Source: Chthoniobacterales bacterium (lineage in GTDB: Bacteria > Verrucomicrobiota > Verrucomicrobiia > Chthoniobacterales > UBA6821). Taken from it: DNA of 45,409 nucleotides. This document shows positions 5,001 through 35,730 of this stretch, piece by piece. The notes below the pieces were generated by a model. The model made no database searches. It had not been told where the DNA came from and worked only from the letters and a program-made list of their open reading frames with translations. Position 1 is the first letter of the stretch. Each line of letters begins with the position of its first letter. Made by a program: the position numbers and the translations under genes. The DNA is taken from NCBI GenBank assembly GCA_019747895.1, contig JAIEQF010000028.1, positions 1-45,409 of the forward strand, written 5' to 3'.

Positions 5001-5147
5001 AAAAACTGCCTCAACAATTCGCTGAAGCGGATGAAATACAAGGAACCTCGGAGCACAGACGCTGAGCGTATATTAATACGTGAAGCGGTGAGCACCGGAG
5101 TGACGCTGTAGTTCGCCGCCTCAGTAGAATTGATGAGGTAGTTTTTT
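5001..5147. repeat. Long-hairpin element, family 1, copy A
   Basis: This long imperfect palindrome has outer arms of about 28 bp: AAAAACTGCCTCAACAATTC at 5001 pairs with 5120-5147. The core contains GACGCTGAGCGTAT, an A/T tip (TATTAATAC) and GAGCACCGGAGTGACGC, which are shared with the four other copies. Its right edge reaches into the hppA stop codon (5146-5148), so on the hppA mRNA it would form the 3' hairpin. Confidence 0.85.
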
Positions 5148-7212
5148 ACTTGAACAAGAGAGGGACGACTAAGATCGCAACAATGTTCACAACCTTGATC
5201 ATGGGATTGATTGCAGGTCCTGCGGTATCTTTGTAAGGATCGCCGACAGTGTCACCTGTAACCGCTGCTGAGTGAGCAGAGGAACCTTTGCCACCATGAT
5301 TTCCTTCTTCAATATATTTTTTTGCATTATCCCAAGCCCCACCACTCGATGTCATCGAGATAGCAAGGAAGAGACCAGTGACAATCGTTCCGACAAGCAC
5401 ACCACCAAGAGCTACAGCTCCAAGCCAAGGAATAAATCCAACAGCAAGAACCGTTGCAATAGGAAGAAGCGCGGGAATAATCATTTCACGAAGAGCTGCC
5501 TTCGTTACGATATCAACACACGTGCCATACTCCGGCGTATCTTGTCCGGTGAGAATGCCAGGATGAAGCTTGAGTTGACGACGTACTTCGATGACGACAG
5601 CGCCAGCAGCTTTACCGACCGCATCAATACTGAAAGCGGAGAAAACAAAAGGAAGTAGTCCTCCAATTAGCAATCCTGCAATCACACGAGGATCGGAGAG
5701 AGAAAAGTTCAAGGCTGTGCTTCCATTCATATGGTTTTTGAGCTCTTCAACATAAGAACCAAAAAGAACTAATGCTGCAAGACCAGCTGAAGCGATCGCG
5801 TAGCCTTTCGTAACAGCCTTCATCGTGTTGCCCACAGCATCAAGCTCATCGGTTATAGCACGAGCGGATGCAGGCGATTCACTCATCACAGCAATACCAC
5901 CAGCATTGTCGGTGATAGGACCGAAAGCATCGAGCGAGATGATGATTCCAGAAAGCGAGAGCATGCTCATGACTGCAACTGCTACACCATAGAGCCCTGC
6001 AAAATGGAAGCTTCCTAAGATCGCAGCAATAATGAACACCGCAGGCAAGACTGTTGCATGATTTCCCACAGCGATACCAGCAATGATGTTCGTACCATGA
6101 CCAGTCTCCGAAGCGCGTGCAATCCGGCGGACAGGTTCATATTCGGTAGAAGTAAAATAGTTGGTGATGAGCACAATGATTGCTGTCATTAAAAGACCAA
6201 TCAACGCAGCGATGTAAAGCCCTTGTGATGTGATCGTCATTGTTTCTGTTACAATATCATTAGGAAAAAGCATTTTGGTCGCAGGATAAAATAATACTGC
6301 TGAGAAGAGCGCATTCAAGACGACTGCCGTGATCAAGGTCGCGCCTGGCTTTTTGTTAGAAGCATTGACATAAAAAATACCAATGATCGATCCAATCACC
6401 GAAATGCCACCAAGAACAAAAGGATAGAGGATGGCAGCAGGAGTTGATTTGAGAGTCAAGTAGCCGACAAAGATAGCGCCAATAAGACTGACGGCATAAG
6501 TTTCAAAAACGTCAGCTGCCATTCCAGCACAGTCTCCAACGTTGTCTCCAACGTTATCCGCAATGGTTGCTGGATTGCGTGGATCATCTTCGTCGAGATT
6601 TTGTTCAATCTTTCCAACAAGGTCCGCGCCAACGTCAGCAGCTTTGGTGTAGATTCCACCGCCAAGACGAGCAAAGACACTAATCAAACTGGCTCCAAGA
6701 GCTAATCCGATCAGACTGTTGATCGCTTCTGCCTCTCCGAGCAAGGGACGAGCCAATGCGTAAAATCCGCCAACGGAAATAAGAGCCAACCCAACAACGA
6801 GCAGTCCAGTAACAGCACCACCACTAAAAGCCATCCGCATGGCAGCATGACGCGAGAGCAAGGCTCCAGCAGCTGTGCGCACGTTAGCAATGACAGCAAC
6901 TCGCATTCCGACATAACCGGCAGCCAAGGAGCAGAGAGCCCCAATGACAAAACCACCGGAAGCAGCTTGTCCTTTGAAATAGTAAAGCAGGGCAAAAATA
7001 ACCACAGCGATGAGAGAAATGGCCGTGATTTGCCGATTAAGATAAGCTTTAGCTCCCTCTTGGATCGCGCTGGCAATCACTCCCATCTTTGGAGTTCCTG
7101 CAGAGGAGGTAATAACAGATCGGATTAATGCTAGGGCAACAAGGAGGCCAAGCGTTCCACAGATCATGGCGAAGTTAATGCCATTTTGAATTTGCATGAG
7201 GTTCGTAAACAT
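5146..7212 (-). CDS. hppA: Membrane-bound proton-pumping pyrophosphatase, K+-independent type
   Basis: HppA couples hydrolysis of pyrophosphate to ion pumping across the cytoplasmic membrane. The 688 aa contain about 16 hydrophobic segments. The PPi/Mg site has [18 protein letters not shown] (183-201), [21 protein letters not shown] (about 208-228) and a late copy [24 protein letters not shown]. At the position that separates K+-dependent (Ala and Gly/Ala) from K+-independent enzymes (Lys and Thr), it reads [10 protein letters not shown] (461-470) with K465 and T468, which predicts a K+-independent H+ pump. lnt lies 117 bp upstream on the same strand. A family-1 long-hairpin element starts at its stop codon. 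Confidence 0.96.
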
Positions 7213-12841: not shown

Positions 12842-13720
12842 ATGCGCTTCTATCTTCCACCTCATGCTTGGAACGAGCCTCAACTCGATAAAGCCGAGGC
12901 GCATCATGCCCAGCGCGTGTTGCGCTTACAACCAGGAGCAGCGATCACGGTTTTTGATGGAGAAGGTCGTGTCGCTTCAGCCGTCATTGAAACCTTTCAT
13001 AAAAAAAGTGCTCTTCTTCGTCTGGGAGCCTCACAATTAACACCACGTCCCACTGTTGAAATCACTGTCGCGCAGGCCATCCCCAAAGGACGGAATATGG
13101 ATCTCATTATTCAAAAAGCTGTTGAGCTTGGCGCCGCACGCATCATCCCTCTCGTGACGGATAGAACCATCGTCCGGTGCCAGAGCGATGACGCAAAACA
13201 AGAACGGTGGCAGGGTATCGCTCTAGAGGCCTGCAAACAGTGCGGTCAAAATTGGATGCCCCTCGTAGAAGCGCCTTGCTCTCTTCAAGAATCTTTAGAC
13301 TTCTTTCAAAACTCTACTTCTGACGCGAATTGCGACGTCGCTCCGGTGCTCGCGTCATCGAGTATTAACTATACACTCAGCCGCTGTGCGCCGGAGCCTC
13401 CTGGCACTTCATCGCCAGAAGCGAGTTTTGAAAGAAGTCTTTTTAAAAAAATTAACTCCAACGATCTCCTCCTCATTGCCTCGTTAGAAAAAGAAGCCGC
13501 GCCGATGAAAAATATTTTTTCCTCGTTGAAAAAAAATAGCTCATCTTCCATTTCTTCTGCTACTATTTTTATCGGCCCTGAAGGCGATTTTACCCATGAG
13601 GAATATCTCCTCGCTAGAGCCGCAGGCTGTCAGCCTATCTCACTTGGCCCTATCGTTCTTCGAACAGAAACAGCAGCTCTTTATTGCTTGAGTGTGCTAG
13701 CTTATGAATTGTTACGTTAA
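12842..13720 (+). CDS. rsmE: 16S rRNA (uracil-1498-N3)-methyltransferase with in-frame repeat insertion
   Basis: RsmE is a SPOUT-fold methyltransferase that modifies U1498 of 16S rRNA. The N-terminal PUA-like part (MRFYLPPHAW...HHAQRVLRLQPGAAITVFDGEG) is followed by AIPKGRNMDLIIQKAVELGA and the SAM-binding knot GPEGDFTHEEY...PISLGPIVLRTETAA. The protein has 292 aa, about 48 more than usual. The excess is exactly accounted for by a 144-bp long-hairpin element at 13297-13440, about residues 152-200, which keeps the frame and contributes a Ser/Pro/Cys-rich surface loop. The knot residues are intact, so the enzyme is probably functional. It overlaps folE2 by 1 nt (TAATG). Confidence 0.93.
   Translation: MRFYLPPHAWNEPQLDKAEAHHAQRVLRLQPGAAITVFDGEGRVASAVIETFHKKSALLRLGASQLTPRPTVEITVAQAIPKGRNMDLIIQKAVELGAARIIPLVTDRTIVRCQSDDAKQERWQGIALEACKQCGQNWMPLVEAPCSLQESLDFFQNSTSDANCDVAPVLASSSINYTLSRCAPEPPGTSSPEASFERSLFKKINSNDLLLIASLEKEAAPMKNIFSSLKKNSSSSISSATIFIGPEGDFTHEEYLLARAAGCQPISLGPIVLRTETAALYCLSVLAYELLR
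13297..13440 (-). repeat. Long-hairpin element, family 1, copy E, inside rsmE
   Basis: The 144 bp begin AGACTTCTTTCAAAACTC and end with the inverse GAGTTTTGAAAGAAGTCT. Read on the minus strand, it aligns from end to end with copy D (34875-35018), arms included, with only scattered differences. The core GAGCACCGGAGCGACG is present. The length is divisible by three and no stop codon occurs in the rsmE frame. Confidence 0.92.
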
Positions 13721-17480: not shown

Positions 17481-19454
17481 TTATTTCGAAGAAATGAAAT
17501 GACGTTGGCAGCTCCACTTCCTGCAATATTCTTCGAGCTGCTCTTCAAAAAGAGGAAGAGGGTTCCATTGCAACCATCCCGGCATGGGCGGATATTCAAA
17601 AGGACAGTAAACAGCCGTTCCAGTTTGATTGAACAGAGCCCCCAAGTAACTAAACGCAGAGCGGCTCATAACAAGGACATCCGCAGTCGCTAGTTTTTCT
17701 AACGTTTCAATCGGATCGCCATTAATAAATTTTTTTAAATGAGGCAGCTCCTCAAAGTCTGCCAGATGATAGCTCTCTGGATCTAGCACCATCGGGGCTT
17801 CAAGACGACCTTCTATTCCATAATGATCGGGAGTCACTGTAAATGGCTGCGGCGACAACTCTGTATAAAGCTCGCAAACATAGGGAATATTAAATCGCTC
17901 AAGCATCGCGATTACTTTAGTTGCAACATCAATATAATATTGATTCGGAAGCAAGCGCTTCGAATAACCAATCGGTAAATCACCCCATCTCACATGAATG
18001 GCAATTCTAAAAAGAGAAGAGTTTTGTTTTTTAGAACCTTTCTTAAATGGAGAAAGAGCGCGAGCAGACTCCCAAGCCAACGGAGTGTTGCCGACCATGG
18101 CGCTGGCGGAAGAGAGCTTTACTAAGAAAAATTTGTGAGGCTGTTGTCTAGCCTCTTCCATGAGGTAAGAGAGAATTCTTTTGTGTGCGAAAACAAACTT
18201 CGTCACGTTGGCATCAGGAGGAACTTCAACATCGGAAGGAATGTGAAATTTTTCGTTATATCGTTTTGGCAATTCGCAATCCTCTTCATTTTTTTCTAAG
18301 GAAATGACGCCTTGATATCCGATTCGCTTCAACGGTGAATGGTAATAGGAAACATTCAACTGGCGAGCAAGGGCATAGATCCCGTAGATACGACAAAGCT
18401 GTGAACCTGCTCCATCCATGAGAGAATCATTGTCATAGGTAAGCGCTAAATTTTTTAGCCGCGAAGTTGTGTTGACGGATGTAGAAGAAAAAAATCTAGA
18501 AGGGATAAACTCTCGTGCTCTTTTCCATGTTTGACAGCAATCCTCTATTTTTGCTTCGAGGTCTTCATCGCAGTTCATCCAACGAGACAATTTGGAAGGA
18601 ATCGAAGGTGGAGCAATAACAACTCCTGTTTGATTGAGCAATCCTCCGACATAACTTAACGATGAAGGATTCATGATGAGAATATCAGCCGATGCCAATG
18701 ATTTCAAAACTGCCATCGGATTGCTGTTGATCACTTTTTTTAAACATGGAACCTGCTCGAAATCATGAAGCGAAAATATTTCCGGCCTCATCTTCAGGAA
18801 GCGAGGATCATCTAGAGATGCCCTTCTCATCGACTCAGAAGAGATGTCACTAAAAAGTTCACAAATAAAAGGAAGTTGGTGTTTTTTTAAAACCCTCGTC
18901 ACCCTCATCGCAACTTGAACAAAATAGCCATTGGACAACACCTGCTCTGGTTTTGCTGCAAAAAAATCGGCGCCATTAACGCGAATGCCTATTTTCACAA
19001 ACGCATTGTTACGAACTTTGTTAAAAGGAAATACTTCTTCAACAAAATTCCATAGTTCAGGTTTATGATTAATAATAGAAAGAGGGTTTCCTAACCTGAT
19101 GAGATGGAAGTGTTCGTCATAAGCCGCTTGAGACCTGACTGCAGATAAAAAATCGATCGTGGTCTCCATTGTTGTGTGAACCCTTCCACCGCTTGGAAGA
19201 ACAATATCTGAAGGAATCTGAAAAATTTTATTCGCTAACTCGACAAAATCAAAATCGCTTTGGATGCCTTCCAGAGAACCCAGCCCCTGATCATTTACTT
19301 TTCGTAGCGGCGAATGGATGTAGGCGATTTTTAAATGTCGAGCAAGCGCGTAAATTCCATAAAGGCGATGGAGCTGAGAACCAATATCATCGCAAAAAAG
19401 TTCACTGGCATAGGTGAGCCCCACCTTATCAAGTCGTGATATTGTTTGCTCCAT
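17481..19454 (-). CDS. Double-domain fucosyltransferase-like protein with degenerate N-terminal half
   Basis: The 657 aa consist of two homologous halves (1-325 and 332-657), each like the single-domain proteins at 20188, 21165 and 22143. Shared landmarks are SQLHRLYGIYALARHL near the start of each half (GT11-like GGLGNQ position), HSPL, and the ADILIMNPSSLSYVGGLLNQ / ADVLVMSRSAFSYLGALFNQ acceptor-side motif. The C-terminal half has the fucosyltransferase motif IHVRWGD (486-492), which binds the GDP-sugar phosphate. In the N-terminal half it is GIRVNGAD (156-163), which lacks the His and the Gly-Asp spacing, so only the C-terminal half looks catalytic. gmd and fcl in this window would supply GDP-fucose. 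The substrate is not known. Confidence 0.7.
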   Translation of the reverse strand: MEQTISRLDKVGLTYASELFCDDIGSQLHRLYGIYALARHLKIAYIHSPLRKVNDQGLGSLEGIQSDFDFVELANKIFQIPSDIVLPSGGRVHTTMETTIDFLSAVRSQAAYDEHFHLIRLGNPLSIINHKPELWNFVEEVFPFNKVRNNAFVKIGIRVNGADFFAAKPEQVLSNGYFVQVAMRVTRVLKKHQLPFICELFSDISSESMRRASLDDPRFLKMRPEIFSLHDFEQVPCLKKVINSNPMAVLKSLASADILIMNPSSLSYVGGLLNQTGVVIAPPSIPSKLSRWMNCDEDLEAKIEDCCQTWKRAREFIPSRFFSSTSVNTTSRLKNLALTYDNDSLMDGAGSQLCRIYGIYALARQLNVSYYHSPLKRIGYQGVISLEKNEEDCELPKRYNEKFHIPSDVEVPPDANVTKFVFAHKRILSYLMEEARQQPHKFFLVKLSSASAMVGNTPLAWESARALSPFKKGSKKQNSSLFRIAIHVRWGDLPIGYSKRLLPNQYYIDVATKVIAMLERFNIPYVCELYTELSPQPFTVTPDHYGIEGRLEAPMVLDPESYHLADFEELPHLKKFINGDPIETLEKLATADVLVMSRSAFSYLGALFNQTGTAVYCPFEYPPMPGWLQWNPLPLFEEQLEEYCRKWSCQRHFISSK

Positions 19455-19523
19455 TAATCCATCATCTTCAAAAATGTTCCCCTAATGCAACAATCACTTA
19501 AATTTTTAAGTTACCTCCAACTC

Positions 19524-19667
19524 GAAATTTCTTTTTAAAGTGACCTAATGCTGATGAAATACAAGACGTCGAGGAGTACAGACGCTGAGCGTATTTGTAT
19601 ACGTGAAGCGACGAGCACCACAGCAATGCAGTAGTTCGCAGCAGAAGGTTACTTAAAAAAGAAATTT
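19524..19667. repeat. Long-hairpin element, family 1, copy B
   Basis: Outer arms AAATTTCTTTTTAAAGTGAC (19525) and GTTACTTAAAAAAGAAATTT pair over about 30 bp. The core holds GATGAAATACAAG, CAGACGCTGAGCGTAT and GAGCACCACAGCAATG. The right edge lies 1 nt before the ybaB start codon, so the ybaB leader would be a long hairpin. Confidence 0.87.
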
Positions 19668-19668
19668 T

Positions 19669-19980
19669 ATGAATATAGCTAAAATGATGCAAGCCGCAGC
19701 CACGGCTCAAAAGAAAATGGCGAAGATCCAAGAAGAGCTCGCTCAACGCACAGTAGAAGCAACCTCGGGCGGCGGTCGTGTGACCGTCACAGCAAGTGGC
19801 ACTGGTGAAATTTTATCTCTCAAAATTGCTCCCGAAGTCGTTTCTGCTGACGATGTGGAAATATTAGAAGATTTAATTTTAAGCGCCGTCCGTCAAGCAA
19901 TGGCTGATGCAAAAAAAATGAGTGAAGCAGAAATGGGCAAGCTAACGGCTGGTCTAGGCATGTCGGGACTTCCTTTTTAG
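19669..19980 (+). CDS. ybaB: YbaB/EbfC-family nucleoid-associated protein
   Basis: The 103 aa form a small dimeric DNA-binding protein. In many bacteria it is encoded next to dnaX and recR; here dnaX lies about 3 kb away. Landmarks are the N-terminal helix with MMQAAATAQKKMAKIQEELAQ, the central strands GGGRVTVTASGTGEILSLKIAPEVV, then EILEDLILSAVRQAMADAKK and the C-terminal GLGMSGLPF. It probably binds DNA non-specifically and shapes the nucleoid. The ATG comes 1 nt after a long-hairpin element whose right arm (AAAAAAGAAATTTT) occupies the place of the ribosome-binding site, and no good Shine-Dalgarno sequence is seen. Confidence 0.9.
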   Translation: MNIAKMMQAAATAQKKMAKIQEELAQRTVEATSGGGRVTVTASGTGEILSLKIAPEVVSADDVEILEDLILSAVRQAMADAKKMSEAEMGKLTAGLGMSGLPF

Positions 19981-20033
19981 ACACTATTTTTGACTGAAAA
20001 CTGAAAGCTATCATTCTGCTCTAATGACGCTTC

Positions 20034-20141
20034 GAAGAAGTTTGAGTATTTGTAGTTTGAGTTTGAGTTATCTAGGCTTCGCTTTATGCCGCAATGCGCG
20101 AAGCGCCTATTGAACTCAAACTCAAACTACAAATACTCAAA
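20034..20141. repeat. Palindromic GTTTGAG element, copy 2
   Basis: The left arm (20037-20070) has AAGTTTGAGTATTTGTAG and GTTTGAGTTTGAGTT. The right arm (20111-20141) is its near-perfect reverse complement. An inner stem AGGCTTCGC / GCGAAGCGCCT forms the tip. It lies between the convergent ybaB and fucosyltransferase-like genes, where it could act as a two-way terminator. Confidence 0.85.
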
Positions 20142-20187
20142 CATTATCACATGTAACTTAATTTTTTTTAAGTGAATATAAATCTAA

Positions 20188-21168
20188 TCACGTGATGACA
20201 TGCCCTAACCATTGTTCGCAGTACTCTTCGAGTTGTTCTTCAAAAAACACACGCGGAAAAGGCCGCAGCCAATCTGACATCGGAGGATGCCAGAAGGGAG
20301 CATAGAGTGACTTCCCATCTTGATTGAAAAGAGCCGCCAAGTAACTAAAAGAAGACTTACTCATGATGAGAAAATCGGCTGTTGCCAATGCTTCTAATGT
20401 TTCGATCGGATCTTCATTGATTCTTTTGTGCAAGTTAGGAATCACCTCAAAGTCCGAAACTCGATATTGCTCTGGCGTGAGCATGACGGATTCTTTCAAG
20501 CGATATTCTTCAATCCTATTTTTCACACCATGATGTTGAGGGGTCACCATAAATGATGCTGAGGGCATCTCTGTGTGCAATTCACAAACAAAAGGAATCT
20601 CCCATTTTTCCAACATCTGAATGACTTTGGTTGCAGTTGCAATGTAGTAGTCATTAGGCAGGAGGCGTTCCTGATGATCAATCAACAAATCTCCCCATCG
20701 CACATGAATGGCAACGCGAAAAGCCGAAGAAATTTTTTTTGGAAAAGGAGAAAGAGTTCGAGCATGTTCAAAAACAACAGGTTTCGCATCCGTGATAGTC
20801 ATTGGAAAGCCTATCCTCACTAAAAAAAAGTCAGAAGGATTTTGTTCTGCTTTTTTGATCTGCTCTAACAAAAGCTTTTCTTCGGCATAAAACTGAGTCG
20901 TGATGATGGCATCTGATGGAACATCGACATCGGAATTGATGTGAAATACTTTGTTGTATCGCGCAACCAATTCTAAATTATTTTCGTTTTCCTCTAATGC
21001 TCTCACTCCTTGATATCCGATTTCTTCGAGTGGTGAATGAACATAAGGAATATTGTAGGCTCTCGATAGCGCATAGACTCCATAGATGCGATGGAGCTGC
21101 GATCCGGAGCCATCCATGAGGAGCTCAGGAGCATAGGTGAGAGCTATATTTTTAAGTCGAGGATTCAT
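20188..21168 (-). CDS. Fucosyltransferase-like glycosyltransferase
   Basis: This is a single-domain member (326 aa from the ATG at 21168) of the local family. Landmarks are DGSGSQLHRIYGVYALSR (20-36), HSPL, the GDP-sugar-binding IHVRWGD (154-160) and ADFLIMSKSSFSYLAALFNQ near the C-terminus. The HxRxGD motif and the closing S-S-F-S pattern are those of the GT11/GT23 fucosyltransferase superfamily; the acceptor is unknown. The start at 21168 is chosen because its ATG overlaps the TGA of the preceding gene (ATGA), which implies translational coupling. The more upstream ATG (21189) would add MEGASRD without homology to its relatives. It is the last gene of the Feo-fucosyltransferase run. Confidence 0.72.
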   Translation of the reverse strand: MNPRLKNIALTYAPELLMDGSGSQLHRIYGVYALSRAYNIPYVHSPLEEIGYQGVRALEENENNLELVARYNKVFHINSDVDVPSDAIITTQFYAEEKLLLEQIKKAEQNPSDFFLVRIGFPMTITDAKPVVFEHARTLSPFPKKISSAFRVAIHVRWGDLLIDHQERLLPNDYYIATATKVIQMLEKWEIPFVCELHTEMPSASFMVTPQHHGVKNRIEEYRLKESVMLTPEQYRVSDFEVIPNLHKRINEDPIETLEALATADFLIMSKSSFSYLAALFNQDGKSLYAPFWHPPMSDWLRPFPRVFFEEQLEEYCEQWLGHVIT

Positions 21169-22133
21169 ATCTCGCGATGCTCCTTCCATTTTTTACAAAA
21201 TTCCTGCAGCTGTTCTTTAAAAAGAATGCGAGGAGTCCATTCGAGCCACCCTGGCAGCGGCGGATGCCAAAATGGAAAATAGACCATAGCCCCTGTTTGA
21301 TTCAGGATTGCCGAAAGATAACTAAATGAAGAGCGACTCATGATGAGGAGATCAGCTGTAGCTAATGCTTCCAGTGTTTCAATAGGATCTTCGTTGAAAT
21401 GTTTTTCCAAATGAGGCAATTCATTAAACTCTCTGAGATCATATTGCTCAGGTCTGAGTATGACAGGCTCATTAATACGACCGACCATGCCATGATGTTG
21501 AGGAGTTACCAGAAGAGGTTTTGTCGGAAACTCTGTATGCAATTCACAAACAAAAGAAATCTGAAATTTTTTTAAAATTTCTATCACCTCCTGTGCAACC
21601 TCAACATAGTGAAAATTGGGAACAATCCGATCCCTATGTGCAATAGGAAGATCTCCCAGCCTGACATGAATGGCGATGCGAAAAGTTAAAGAGTCCTTTT
21701 TTTTAAAAGGAGAAATTTCTTTTGCATAACGAAACACCTCTGGATACCTGTCTGTAAAAGGAGTGGTAAAAGCCAGCTTGATTAAGAAAAACTGATTTTT
21801 TTTCTCCTTAGCTTCGCACGCAATATCGGTTAAGAATTTTCCATCACCAATCATACAGCTTACACAGGCATATGTGTTAGGGAGTTCAATATCGGAGGGA
21901 ATATGAAAAAGTTGATTGTAGCGGTCTAACAACTCCAAGCTGTTTTCATTTTTTTCTAAGGCAACCATCCCCTGATAACCAATCTCCTTTAGCGGCGAAT
22001 GCCAGTAGGAGACGTTAAAGATTCTTGAGAGAGCATAGACTCCATAGATACGTTGAAGCTGCGATCCTGCCCCATCGCAGAGGAAATCATTAGCGTAAGT
22101 AAACGCTATATTAGTAAGTCTCTCTTCTTGCAT
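21165..22133 (-). CDS. Fucosyltransferase-like glycosyltransferase
   Basis: The 322 aa are collinear with the neighbours on both sides: DGAGSQLQRIYGVYALSR (20-37), HSPLKEIGYQG, the donor motif IHVRLGD (155-161) and ADLLIMSRSSFSYLSAILNQ. It is probably a cytoplasmic, membrane-associated transferase that uses a GDP-6-deoxyhexose. It starts 9 bp after the stop of the gene at 22143 and its TGA overlaps the next start, so the three form a tight operon. Sequence similarity among the copies indicates local tandem duplication followed by divergence, which suggests different acceptors rather than simple dosage. Confidence 0.72.
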   Translation of the reverse strand: MQEERLTNIAFTYANDFLCDGAGSQLQRIYGVYALSRIFNVSYWHSPLKEIGYQGMVALEKNENSLELLDRYNQLFHIPSDIELPNTYACVSCMIGDGKFLTDIACEAKEKKNQFFLIKLAFTTPFTDRYPEVFRYAKEISPFKKKDSLTFRIAIHVRLGDLPIAHRDRIVPNFHYVEVAQEVIEILKKFQISFVCELHTEFPTKPLLVTPQHHGMVGRINEPVILRPEQYDLREFNELPHLEKHFNEDPIETLEALATADLLIMSRSSFSYLSAILNQTGAMVYFPFWHPPLPGWLEWTPRILFKEQLQEFCKKWKEHREI

Positions 22134-22142
22134 AAGAAATCC

Positions 22143-23111
22143 TCACCATTGTTGAGCCCAGCGTTCACAGCACTCATTAATTTCCTCCTCAAAAAACTCT
22201 CCTTGGTCATTCGTAATCCAATGAGGAAGTGCTGTGTGCCAAAGTGGATGACTCACAATAATCCCTTTGTGATTTAATACTCCAGCAACATAGCTAAAAG
22301 AAGAACGGCTCATAATCAGGAGATCTGCTGTTGCTAATGATTGCAATGCTTCAATAGGATCGCCATTAATAAATTTCTGCAGCTTTGGTAACACTTCAAA
22401 ATCTTCCAGTTGGCACATCTCGGAAGTGATCGTCCTTGTTCCTATGATCTTTTCATGATCAATGCCACAGTGTTCTTCTGTGATTGTAAAAGTCTTTGAA
22501 GGAAGTTCGGTATAAAGCTCACACAAAAAAGGAATTTTGTGCTTCTTTAAGATTCTTATGATATTTAGTGCCGTATCAATGTAATAAGCATTGGGCGATA
22601 TGCGCTCTGGATCGACAACAAAAAAATCTCCTCTTCTCACATGAAGAGCCATTCTAAAAACTCGACTCTGACTCGCTTGAAAAGGGGCTACCTTTTCAAC
22701 ATAGCGCATCATTTGAGGATTTTTATCCGTCATGGGATAAGGATGCCCCAATCTCACTAAATGAAATTCATCACTTTTTTTTGCCTTGTCTCGAGCGGCA
22801 CATAAGAAATCTAAATCTGTAGACATGGCAGTACAGACCACTCCTGTTTTAGGAAATTCTACATCAGATGCTATGTGAAAGACCTCGTTACAACGAGAAA
22901 CAAACGCTGGATCGAGCTCATTTTTTTCCAACGCTGCAAGCCCTTGATAATTTATTTTTCCAATGGGTGAATGGATATAAGCAACATCTAAAAATCGCGA
23001 AAGAGCATAGATACCATAAATGCACTGCAACTGAGATCCTAGGCCGTCACTAAAAAATTCACTGGCATAAGTCAGAGCCAAGTTATTCACCCTTGAAAAC
23101 TCTCCTCCCAT
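22143..23111 (-). CDS. Fucosyltransferase-like glycosyltransferase
   Basis: From the ATG at 23111 (MGGEFSRVNNLALTYASEFF) it has 322 aa with DGLGSQLQCIYGIYALSR, HSPI, the donor motif LHVRRGD (156-162, closest of the set to the classical HIRRGD) and ADLLIMSRSSFSYVAGVLNH. The frame is open for 30 more codons upstream, but that part overlaps the small Cys-rich Feo gene in another frame and has no counterpart in the relatives. The gene begins 4 bp after the Cys-rich gene ends, so it appears to be transcribed with the iron-transport genes. Confidence 0.72.
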   Translation of the reverse strand: MGGEFSRVNNLALTYASEFFSDGLGSQLQCIYGIYALSRFLDVAYIHSPIGKINYQGLAALEKNELDPAFVSRCNEVFHIASDVEFPKTGVVCTAMSTDLDFLCAARDKAKKSDEFHLVRLGHPYPMTDKNPQMMRYVEKVAPFQASQSRVFRMALHVRRGDFFVVDPERISPNAYYIDTALNIIRILKKHKIPFLCELYTELPSKTFTITEEHCGIDHEKIIGTRTITSEMCQLEDFEVLPKLQKFINGDPIEALQSLATADLLIMSRSSFSYVAGVLNHKGIIVSHPLWHTALPHWITNDQGEFFEEEINECCERWAQQW

Positions 23112-23115
23112 AAAA

Positions 23116-23256
23116 TTAAAATTTTTTCTTGGAAGAGCAACCACACCCTCCCCCGCAGCCAGGTTTTTTGTGGCCTTTCCACCAGCGATAAATAAAACCA
23201 ATAGCTGTCAGCACAACGAGCGTGAGCGCAATGGCTGTTTGAAGTGAGGCGTTCAT
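23116..23256 (-). CDS. FeoB-associated Cys-rich membrane protein
   Basis: This 46-aa gene was found by translating the gap. It has one N-terminal membrane helix (AIALTLVVLTAIGFIYRWW) followed by a basic, Cys-rich tail KKPGCGGGCGCSSKKKF. This matches the FeoB-associated Cys-rich membrane protein family (PF12669), sometimes called FeoC-like or FeoX, whose members lie beside feoB and probably help Fe(II) transport or bind a metal. The usual partner feoB lies on the same strand, with a NUDIX gene in between (8 bp away). The ATG at 23256 gives the typical length. Its four Cys residues are clustered and could bind iron or another metal. Confidence 0.85.
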   Translation of the reverse strand: MNASLQTAIALTLVVLTAIGFIYRWWKGHKKPGCGGGCGCSSKKKF

Positions 23257-26652: not shown

Positions 26653-26660
26653 AAATGCAA

Positions 26661-26803
26661 GTAAAGAGTAACGGGTAACGAGTAACGAGTATATTTTTAT
26701 TCGGCAAATTCAAATTAAAGATTGTATCATTATATATCAGATTTATCAAAATACGTTCTTTGCTTCACCATGACCCGTTACTCGTTACCCGTTACTCGTT
26801 ACT
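26661..26803. repeat. Inverted heptad-repeat pair (ACTCGTT type) between feoA and a methyltransferase gene
   Basis: The left arm (26661-26691) is GTAAAGA-GTAACGG-GTAACGA-GTAACGA. The right arm (26771-26803) is TGACCCGTTACTCGTTACCC and further units, its reverse complement. The loop of about 80 nt is AT-rich. It shares TTCGGCAAATTCAAATTAAA-like loop sequence with the pair at 27818. The right arm ends 2 nt before the methyltransferase ATG. Confidence 0.88.
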
Positions 26804-26805
26804 AA

Positions 26806-27771
26806 ATGCATCCTCATTTTGCGAGATTTCAAAAATTGGCAGAACTTGTCGATGGAGCCAATACTGTCAATCAAGCGCTTATCGACTTTCATCAAAATAA
26901 AACCTCGTCAGTCATCAAAGGAAGGAATGTTATTGCTGGCTATGTCCGTGGCTGGGGGCTCCAGTTTAATATTATTCGTTCTTTTATTCAGCAAGATCCT
27001 ATTTATCGCGAAAGCTTGAAACTGGTTGAAGGAATTCACCTCACTCATGAAGTATCCTTAATGAATATTTTTCTGATCATGAAGTATGGATTAAAAAATC
27101 TAGAGCGTTTTAAATATTGTTGTAGTCGATGCAGTGCCAGGAACGAGGCGCACAGTACCGCAGTGTATTCTGATACTCGAGGACACGAGCACCGGAGTGA
27201 CACCACAATGCGCGACTCCAGCAATATTAAAAATGCTCTAGAAGGCGACATTATTGAATTTGGTTCCTACCACGGAGGATCTGCTATTTTCATGGCCAAC
27301 GTAGCAAAGAGACTTGGGATGACAGGCACTGTTTATGCATTGGATACTTTTACAGGCCTTCCTGCAGCTGATCCCGTTCTTGATTTTCTCGTGACAAATG
27401 ATTTTAAAAATACTTCTTTTGAATCTTTGTCTGAGCGCATCAGTAAACTTGATTTACCCAATCTCGTTCCTATTAAAGGCCCTTTTCAAAAAACGGCACC
27501 TGCCTTGTTGCGTCGTTCTCAAAAAATTTTATTAGCTTATCTTGATTGTAAAACTTACGAGTCGACACATTACGCTCTTTCTTCGGTCCTTCCTCACATG
27601 CACCCTGCAGGTGGATATATCTTGTTGCACGATCCGATTCATAGCAATGGCCTAGGACCTCTTCAAGCCATGGAAGAGATGATTGAGACTCATCAACTCT
27701 ACGCGGAGCAGGCCTATCCGCATATGGTCTATCGTTATCCGAAACTCTGTTCACAAGCGAATCAGTTTTGA
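26806..27771 (+). CDS. TylF-like methyltransferase with in-frame repeat insertion, probably degenerate
   Basis: The 321 aa are related to the 257-aa gene product at 27978 and to the TylF/MycF macrocin O-methyltransferases. The SAM-binding part is GDIIEFGSYHGGSAIFMANVA, then GTVYALDTFTGLPAADP. Between KYGLKNLE and LEGDIIEFG the sibling has no extra residues, whereas this protein has 46 extra, encoded by a 142-bp long-hairpin element. The metal-site Asp motif DCDLYE of the sibling is DCKTYE here, and its FDD is LHD, so this copy may have lost catalysis. The frame is fully open, so I do not call it a pseudogene. A heptad-repeat arm precedes the ATG by 2 nt. Confidence 0.75.
   Translation: MHPHFARFQKLAELVDGANTVNQALIDFHQNKTSSVIKGRNVIAGYVRGWGLQFNIIRSFIQQDPIYRESLKLVEGIHLTHEVSLMNIFLIMKYGLKNLERFKYCCSRCSARNEAHSTAVYSDTRGHEHRSDTTMRDSSNIKNALEGDIIEFGSYHGGSAIFMANVAKRLGMTGTVYALDTFTGLPAADPVLDFLVTNDFKNTSFESLSERISKLDLPNLVPIKGPFQKTAPALLRRSQKILLAYLDCKTYESTHYALSSVLPHMHPAGGYILLHDPIHSNGLGPLQAMEEMIETHQLYAEQAYPHMVYRYPKLCSQANQF
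27100..27241. repeat. Long-hairpin element, family 1, copy C, inside a methyltransferase gene
   Basis: The arms CTAGAGCGTTTTAAATATTG and CAATATTAAAAATGCTCTAG are inverse, with TCTAGA at both ends. The core has GAGCACCGGAGTGACA and a TGATACTCG tip that match the other copies. Compared with the sibling gene at 27978, this segment is a pure insertion (46 codons) between two adjacent residues. It has no stop codon in the methyltransferase frame. Confidence 0.9.
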
Positions 27772-27817
27772 AAATGAACATTTATTTTTGTCTGATACTC
27801 GATTCAACTACAGACAA

Positions 27818-27970
27818 AGTAATGAGTAATGAATAACGGGTAACGAGTGCAATAGTTGTCTTCGTCAAATTCTAAATAAAAGAACCAATCATCACGGATT
27901 AATTTTCCCAAACTTATTATTTTTGTCTGTTCATATTCACTCGTTACTCGTTACCCGCTACTCGTTACTT
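27818..27970. repeat. Inverted heptad-repeat pair (ACTCGTT type) between the two methyltransferase genes
   Basis: The left arm (27818-27850) is GTAATGA-GTAATGA-ATAACGG-GTAACGA-GTG. The right arm (27936-27970) is CACTCGTTACTCGTTACCCG and further units. Arms and loop resemble the pair at 26661, so this may be a co-duplicate of the methyltransferase genes. Confidence 0.88.
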
Positions 27971-27977
27971 TTCTATT

Positions 27978-28751
27978 ATGCCTCATTCATATCAAGAGTT
28001 AGTAATATCTTTTCTTGAGAATGCCAATCACCCTAAACGCAACGGCATTCTTCAAGGGCGAAACGTGATGGCAGGCTACGCTCGTGCCTCTGCTCTTCAA
28101 TGCAACGCGATTCATCCCTTTATCGCCAACGATCCGCTTTATATTGAAAGCAGAGCGTTGATACAGCATCGTCCACTGCTGACCGAATCTCGTTTGATCA
28201 ATCTTTTTCTCATTCTCAAATATGGTTTAAAAGGACTTGAGGGAGATATCATCGAGTTTGGAGCCTATCGTGGAGGATCTGCTATTTTCTTAGCCAATGT
28301 CGCTCGCGGACTTGGTCTTTCAACGACTGTTTATGCGCTCGATACATTTGAAGGAATGCCCACCTCAGACCCTACTCTCAATTTTCATCATGCAACCGAT
28401 TTTGCGAATGTTTCTTTTCAAGAACTCTTGGAGTACAAAGAAAAATGCGGACTTACTAATTTAGTTTTGATCAAAGGCCGCTTTGAAGAGACGGCGCGCC
28501 CGCTTTTAGAAAAAAGTCAAAATATTGTTTTAGCTCATATCGATTGCGATCTTTATGAAGGAACGCGTTATGCCATCAAGACAACCCTTCCTCACTTTCA
28601 TCCTGGAGGAGGATATCTTGTCTTTGATGATGCCCTACAAAGCACTTGTCTTGGGGCTTTGCAGGCTGTTGAAGAGATGATTCAACAACATCACCTCCGC
28701 GCAGAACAATCGTTCCCGCATTTAGTTTATCGGTATCCAAAAGTATGCTGA
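27978..28751 (+). CDS. TylF-like SAM-dependent methyltransferase
   Basis: This 257-aa class I methyltransferase resembles the macrocin O-methyltransferase (TylF, PF05711) family. Members methylate hydroxyl groups of sugars on macrolides or cell-surface glycans and use a Mg ion. Motif I reads EGDIIEFGAYRGGSAIFLANVA (about 93-114), followed by TTVYALDTFEGMP, and the candidate metal site is IDCDLYEGT with FDDALQ downstream. It is the intact sibling of the gene at 26806, and the two may be duplicates with the same N-terminal ILQGRNVMAGYARA segment. Context with rhamnose/fucose genes suggests sugar methylation, but the substrate cannot be determined. Confidence 0.82.
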   Translation: MPHSYQELVISFLENANHPKRNGILQGRNVMAGYARASALQCNAIHPFIANDPLYIESRALIQHRPLLTESRLINLFLILKYGLKGLEGDIIEFGAYRGGSAIFLANVARGLGLSTTVYALDTFEGMPTSDPTLNFHHATDFANVSFQELLEYKEKCGLTNLVLIKGRFEETARPLLEKSQNIVLAHIDCDLYEGTRYAIKTTLPHFHPGGGYLVFDDALQSTCLGALQAVEEMIQQHHLRAEQSFPHLVYRYPKVC

Positions 28752-34874: not shown

Positions 34875-35018
34875 AGACTTCTTTCCAAATTCGCTTCTGG
34901 TGATGAAGTGCCAGGAGCCTTCGGCGCGCAGCCGCTGAGTGTATATCTAATACTCGATGACGTGAGCACCGAAGCGACGCCGCAATTCGCGTCAGAAGTA
35001 GAGTTTCGAAAGAAGTCT
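34875..35018 (+). repeat. Long-hairpin element, family 1, copy D
   Basis: The 144 bp start AGACTTCTTTCC and end GAAAGAAGTCT. Arms and core match copy E in rsmE along the full length in the opposite orientation. The core has GAGCACCGAAGCGACG. The right edge enters the stop codon (35017-35019) of the adjacent minus-strand gene. Confidence 0.9.
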
Positions 35019-35730
35019 ATTGATTCACTGTAGCACCACCTTGCCAGGGGATAATCTTACCATCATCAGGAATCGCACTATAATCAGTAACATTAATCGT
35101 AAACTGGATCGTCTCTACCGGATCTTTCCAAGGCAAGGATCCATCTGTATTTCGAACCATCGCATTGGAATAATAATATTTTTTGAAGGTTAAGGTTATA
35201 GTTCCAGTTTCTTTTGGCAAAAACTCCCATGGGTATGAAGTTTCGTGCGTTTGCCATTTTGTACTCCAACCTACTGGAGAATGCAAAGTATCATGAACTA
35301 ATCCTGGTGGGCATGCTTCCATCTCAAGAACATCATTGTCAACGCCATCATTGTCATACTCCCAACGGAAACCATGTTGAGAACCTCCACCGCTACAATA
35401 AACAGACGAGTTACTCTCATTTCCTTGAAGAGAAATTCTAACAATCGGATTGGAGCTTAGAGATATCTCGATTGGATTGTCTGCGGTGTTCGCTTGATCT
35501 TCGGTGAGAGTGCTTACTGGAGGGCAAAAGACAATTTTACTTTGGCTAAACTTTTTAATCCATTCAGGATGCTCGCGAGCTATCTTGAAATAAGGATCCT
35601 CTGCCTTTTTTATTGTAAGCCCTCCAGTAGGAGGCCCCATCGGAGGCAGATTCTGTATATCATCAGCTCGAAGAGCCTGGTTGCTAAAAAGAAAGCCTAT
35701 TAATAAAAGGGAGGAAAATATTTTTTTCAT
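35017..35730 (-). CDS. Secreted hypothetical protein with chagasin-like strand pattern
   Basis: I do not recognise a named family with certainty. The 237 aa start with a Sec signal peptide (MKKIFSSLLLIGFLFSNQALRA). The mature part ends in the pattern YPWEFLPKETGTITLTFKKY...VETIQFTINVTDYS, which recalls chagasin-type cysteine-protease inhibitors (I42: W-x-F-x-P-x-x-x-G-x-x-x-L-x-F ... F-x-I-x-V) and the proteins at 16768 and 32219. Three Cys residues lie in the mature part (one in FCPP, one in VYCSGGG, one in ACPPG). Its stop codon is overlapped by a long-hairpin element, and a terminator follows. Confidence 0.65.
   Translation of the reverse strand: MKKIFSSLLLIGFLFSNQALRADDIQNLPPMGPPTGGLTIKKAEDPYFKIAREHPEWIKKFSQSKIVFCPPVSTLTEDQANTADNPIEISLSSNPIVRISLQGNESNSSVYCSGGGSQHGFRWEYDNDGVDNDVLEMEACPPGLVHDTLHSPVGWSTKWQTHETSYPWEFLPKETGTITLTFKKYYYSNAMVRNTDGSLPWKDPVETIQFTINVTDYSAIPDDGKIIPWQGGATVNQ

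Follow-up and report, generated by a model that had tools for sequence, protein, structure and literature searches.

Selfish palindromes that keep the reading frame of protein genes have been described chiefly in Rickettsia and Wolbachia and, to our knowledge, how these coding palindromes move is unsettled. Rickettsia palindromic elements (RPEs; Ogata et al. 2000, 2002, as cited in PMC10969869 and PMC3767692) are palindromic repeats inserted in frame in genes. Bacterial MITEs (PMC10969869), such as QMITE1 and QMITE2 of Coxiella (PMC5896051), are short and dispersed, have terminal inverted repeats and short target duplications and carry no transposase gene; they are mostly intergenic (PMC5896051). 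Coding palindromes are also present in the mitochondria of Nematomorpha, where the inverted-repeat arms encode the host protein itself (PMC6649704). Long inverted repeats within protein genes and arms that stay complementary are common to that case and to the one described here, in which a mobile element adds a peptide. Among the papers searched, there were some on RPEs and MITEs and none for the phylum of the bacterium studied here.

The DNA analyzed (hereafter the window) is a stretch of 45,409 bp from a lake bacterium of the Chthoniobacterales (Verrucomicrobiota). One of its methyltransferase genes contains a segment that very probably belongs to a family of non-autonomous, MITE-like palindromic insertion elements specific to the genus.

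Results

The window carries two sibling methyltransferase genes, gene 1 and gene 2 (Table 1). The protein of gene 1 reads MKYGLKNLE, followed by 46 extra residues and by LEGDIIEFGSYHG, and that of gene 2 reads LKYGLKGLEGDIIEFGAYRG; both strings had been quoted in a preliminary description of the locus and were verified in the sequence. The net gain in gene 1 is 138 bp, or 46 codons, in frame and with no stop. Inverted arms of 30 nt (27099-27128 and 27213-27242), 87% complementary, make the segment an imperfect hairpin, and its RNA has a predicted fold of -61.1 kcal/mol compared to -35.7 +/- 3.6 for shuffled sequences (z -7.0). The limits of the element, set by comparison with other copies of the same subgroup (subgroup A), leave one copy of TA on either side. 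The TCTAGA present at both edges had been proposed as a duplicated target or as the palindrome's own end. Only TA is duplicated: from the outside inward, each TCTAGA has two target bases (TC or GA), a copy of TA and two bases of the element (GA or TC). TCTAGA is therefore not itself the duplicated target, being half target and half element.

Table 1. Positions of the methyltransferase genes and of the element copies in the window
Feature	Position	Strand	Basis	Site in sister species
TylF-like class I methyltransferase gene with insertion (gene 1)	26806..27771	+	ORF; Pfam PF05711, PF13578	
Sibling methyltransferase gene, no insertion (gene 2)	27978..28751	+	ORF	
Duplicated target TA, left copy	27101..27102	+		
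136-bp hairpin element, subgroup A (GAGC...GCTC), in frame	27103..27238	+	Arms, fold, genome copies	
Left terminal inverted repeat of gene-1 element	27103..27128	+	Inverted-arm search	
Core of gene-1 element, common to other subgroups	27129..27212	+	Comparison of copies	
Right terminal inverted repeat of gene-1 element	27213..27238	+	Inverted-arm search	
Duplicated target TA, right copy	27239..27240	+		
Second copy, ends AGAC, duplicated TTT, within rsmE (12842-13720) in frame	13297..13440	+		Empty in G005, G002
Third copy, ends AGAC, duplicated ATT, at gene 35017-35730 (3' end)	34875..35018	-		Empty in G005
Fourth copy, 3' end (stop codon) of gene 5146-7212	5001..5146	-		Filled in G005 too

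Repeats of the AGTAACGGGTAACGAGTA type, both inverted and direct, flank the two methyltransferase genes (26660-26690, 26764-26803, 27816-27849 and 27938-27971); they constitute a separate repeat family, partly common to the corresponding locus of a sister species (L031, genome G005). Elsewhere in the window, positions 17481-23201 hold a tandem array of paralogues from one family, in which LALTYA...DGAGSQL-like motifs are repeated. An Rfam search of the window gave tRNA as the sole match.

The segment recurs throughout the genome. A first DNA search returned 45 matching stretches (E <= 10), which rules out chance, and three DNA searches, once merged, identified at least 80 distinct places in the 2.06-Mb genome of the window (G000); this number is a lower bound, as no more than 40 candidates were scored per search. 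The six genomes of the genus all contained the element; a search of 52 other genomes of the same family and order gave none. The named relatives are Verrucomicrobiota assemblies from lake metagenomes.

The core common to the copies is ~86 bp long and the ends differ. Terminal inverted repeats were seen in copies, and their arms are self-complementary: in 37 copies with readable anchors, the outer arms match at 14.0 positions out of 16 inside one copy and at 8.0 when different copies are compared, a comparison in which the copy limits were set by arm complementarity and which is biased toward higher within-copy agreement. At the threshold used, 17 arm families were distinguished. Target duplications vary with the subgroup, being TA for GAGC ends, TNA for GAACC ends and other 3-bp sequences for AGAC ends; their boundaries were chosen by symmetry, with an empty site as a control in six cases, and an exact duplication is absent in about half of the copies. 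The element measures ~136-146 bp, or ~138-149 bp together with the duplication, and a Pfam search of the element peptides gave no match.

Two ideas concerning the ends were considered. Firstly, ends copied from the target were sought by comparing empty sites; AGGCCT in purD was the sole fit, and the idea was rejected. Secondly, in-place correction of the arms would fit the copy at 5001-5146, whose two arms differ by paired changes from those of its G005 counterpart (L240), but the arms changed in an unpaired manner between G000 and G005 in the deiminase gene and not at all in miaB, holA and sua5. In some copies (L117, L118, L126, L127, L128, L273) a further GC-rich palindrome (GGATGGACTGCTGTTAAGCAGCC...) is nested in the core, and the sua5 element of G005 has a palindrome related to this nested type. 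Half copies on contigs C53 and C33 were tried as transposase carriers; they contain a further nested palindrome instead.

With respect to genes, 34 of the at least 80 copies lie within long ORFs that continue in frame through the element. Pfam families were matched in 26 of the 30 read-through proteins searched, and the hosts include dxs, priA, purD, ribD, hom, miaB, sua5 and rsmE as well as genes for PEP carboxylase and a penicillin-binding transpeptidase. Pfam domains flank the insert on both sides in many of these proteins, and in some hosts (nadA, deiminase) the insert lies near one protein end. Twenty-seven of the at least 80 copies are found within 15 bp of a gene 3' end, compared to 2.6% of placements chosen at random within the retrieved regions only. 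Judged by open reading frames alone, no copy was found to interrupt a gene. That the remaining copies are in frame, at 3' ends or between genes points to filtering by selection.

Gene-1 orthologues without the segment were found in two congeneric species, G005 (L031) and G002 (L032), where the site reads MKYGL-PASC-GDII and MKYGL-PSTC-GDII, respectively. As they are of equal length at the site, the earlier statement that nothing is missing beside the segment is correct for length; it does not extend to the residues, four of which differ (KNLE in the window). Comparison with sisters had also been advised, with the reservation that loss of TCTAGA along with the segment would refute an insertion. 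Both are absent from gene 1 of the sisters. We do not accept the absence of TCTAGA as a refutation because the sisters differ at four whole codons and because AAAAATCTAGAAGGC, the sequence that results from joining the flanks of the window insertion, occurs once in the second gene of G002. The predicted empty site is AATCTAGAAGGC, and the gene-1 site looks as if local conversion had given it a sequence of the sibling type, prior to the insertion or together with it.

The element might instead have inserted in a TCTAGA-bearing paralogue, from which gene conversion would have brought it into gene 1. Such a route would account for KNLE and AAAAATCTAGAAGGC, which are of the sibling type found in the second gene of G002, where gene-1 orthologues have PASC or PSTC. 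No paralogue with the element was found in G000, however, and conversion of an empty site followed by insertion fits the data equally well; we consider a passage through a paralogue rather unlikely.

As the orthologous gene-1 site has other codons in the sisters and gives no exact before/after pair, dxs is the cleaner pair for subgroup A, with GAACTCC-TA-element-TA-GCTCAACAA in G000 and GAAATTC-TA-GCTCAACAA in G005. In other subgroups, a duplication and an empty site were both found for the copy at 34875 (ATT), the penicillin-binding protein (PBP) gene and the HAD gene (TAA), rsmE (TTT) and hom (GTT). Altogether, about a dozen host genes have an empty site in G005 or G002. The orthologous sites of four in-frame host genes are filled in G005, and their presence in this independent assembly argues against an assembly artefact. 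The empty orthologous sites, the dozens of dispersed copies and the target duplications support the earlier view of the extra segment as an inserted mobile hairpin.

Gene 1 might also be a decaying pseudogene that is open by accident. In all three species it has indeed lost acidic residues from the motif usual in TylF, but without the insert dN/dS is 0.19 between G000 and G005, the frame is intact on either side, and many housekeeping genes contain the same element, so that decay appears quite improbable. The ratio, which covers the whole divergence and is not dated to the insertion, indicates that gene 1 is under purifying selection overall. At the positions of IDCDLYE and FDD in gene 2, gene 1 reads LDCKTYES and LLHDP in the three species; as the motif is changed in all three, the change in the metal-binding acids may predate the insertion. 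In the one AlphaFold model obtained for the gene-1 product, the insert is a low-confidence segment (blocks with mean pLDDT 43-54) between helix 82-99 and strand 148-152, and the adjoining domain is mostly at 80-96. The methyltransferase fold is retained in this model, and the host gene seems to tolerate the added peptide.

The strong hairpin formed by the segment would also suit its removal or skipping at the level of RNA, ribosome or protein (intron-like, bypass or intein-like). Such processing would not require particular lengths, but clear net insertions in genes are of 138, 144 or 147 bp, with mixed lengths outside genes, and in-gene copies keep an open frame through the element; we regard it as highly improbable. 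As for an ancestral segment lost from the sibling gene and the sister orthologues, the gene pair is present in only three species and the direction of change therefore rests on few sequences, but the same DNA at no fewer than 80 unrelated places, its absence from both orthologues and all paralogues, and the agreement of the TA duplication with dxs, where G005 has a single TA, make the likelihood of such a loss negligible.

Discussion

In the insertion that we propose, the gene-1 element would have been mobilized in trans, probably by an IS5-family transposase, and would have entered at the TA of a sibling-type sequence acquired by gene 1. The insertion would have survived because element and target duplication together preserve the frame and because the extra peptide would be tolerated where it lies, in a loop that joins the last N-terminal helix to the first strand of the methyltransferase domain.

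The IS5 family is suggested by subgroup B, whose 15-bp terminus GAGGGTGTCTTGAAA is also found at transposase genes of the IS5 family in this genus. In G002, one such gene (NF033580, 1.1e-45) lies between GAGGGTGTCTTGAAA and a subgroup-B copy, and G000 has an IS5 remnant terminating in GAGGGTGTCTTGAAA. These findings support mobilization of subgroup B in trans by IS5-family enzymes, although the elements themselves are without transposase; for subgroup A, the same may be proposed by analogy only. Short TA or TNA target duplications fit the IS5 family. Insertion sequences with subgroup-A ends were searched for in the genomes of the genus and none was found. IS630 is also found at TA in the genome, but has other ends and was rejected as the partner of subgroup A; so was an insertion sequence of G003 (L099), whose subgroup-A-like end on one side only was taken as chance. 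The ends of the IS630-type genes L108, L110 and L111 are TATAGTCAAATTACTTAG or TATAGTCAATTAAATT, and L108 and L111 adjoin element copies.

Compared to known systems, the element works, to judge from its sequence, like a MITE: it is short, with terminal inverted repeats and target duplications and, in subgroup B, an end shared with an insertion sequence. It differs from MITEs in the fraction of copies read through in genes and in combining one core with many ends. With RPEs it shares dispersed palindromes of ~100-150 bp in a small genome, several families, and insertion in frame in unrelated genes with addition of a peptide. It differs from them in its phylum, its 2- or 3-bp target duplications, its orthologous empty sites and its terminal-repeat match to the IS5 family. 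The element behaves like an RPE in its in-frame habit; this is a likeness by description, and we do not class it as an RPE. REP palindromes are of 20-40 bp and tied to a Y1 transposase (RAYT). A REP or REPIN system with RAYT was rejected on account of the length of the elements and their target duplications, and no link was observed between the elements and the Y1 genes that the genome has.

One core, many self-complementary ends and subgroup-specific target duplications raise the possibility, which we put forward tentatively, that the core spreads by exchanging ends via several related transposases while being translatable in its host genes, in which case protein-coding mobile palindromes would have arisen independently outside Rickettsiales.

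The insertion in gene 1 is, by itself, a correct but modest point, and the interest lies in the genome-wide pattern. A second, unrelated lineage has dozens of read-through copies in housekeeping genes, and the target duplications, the empty sites of sister species and the transposase lead make insertion rules and protein tolerance directly testable. In annotation, mobile DNA of this kind can be taken for ordinary protein sequence.
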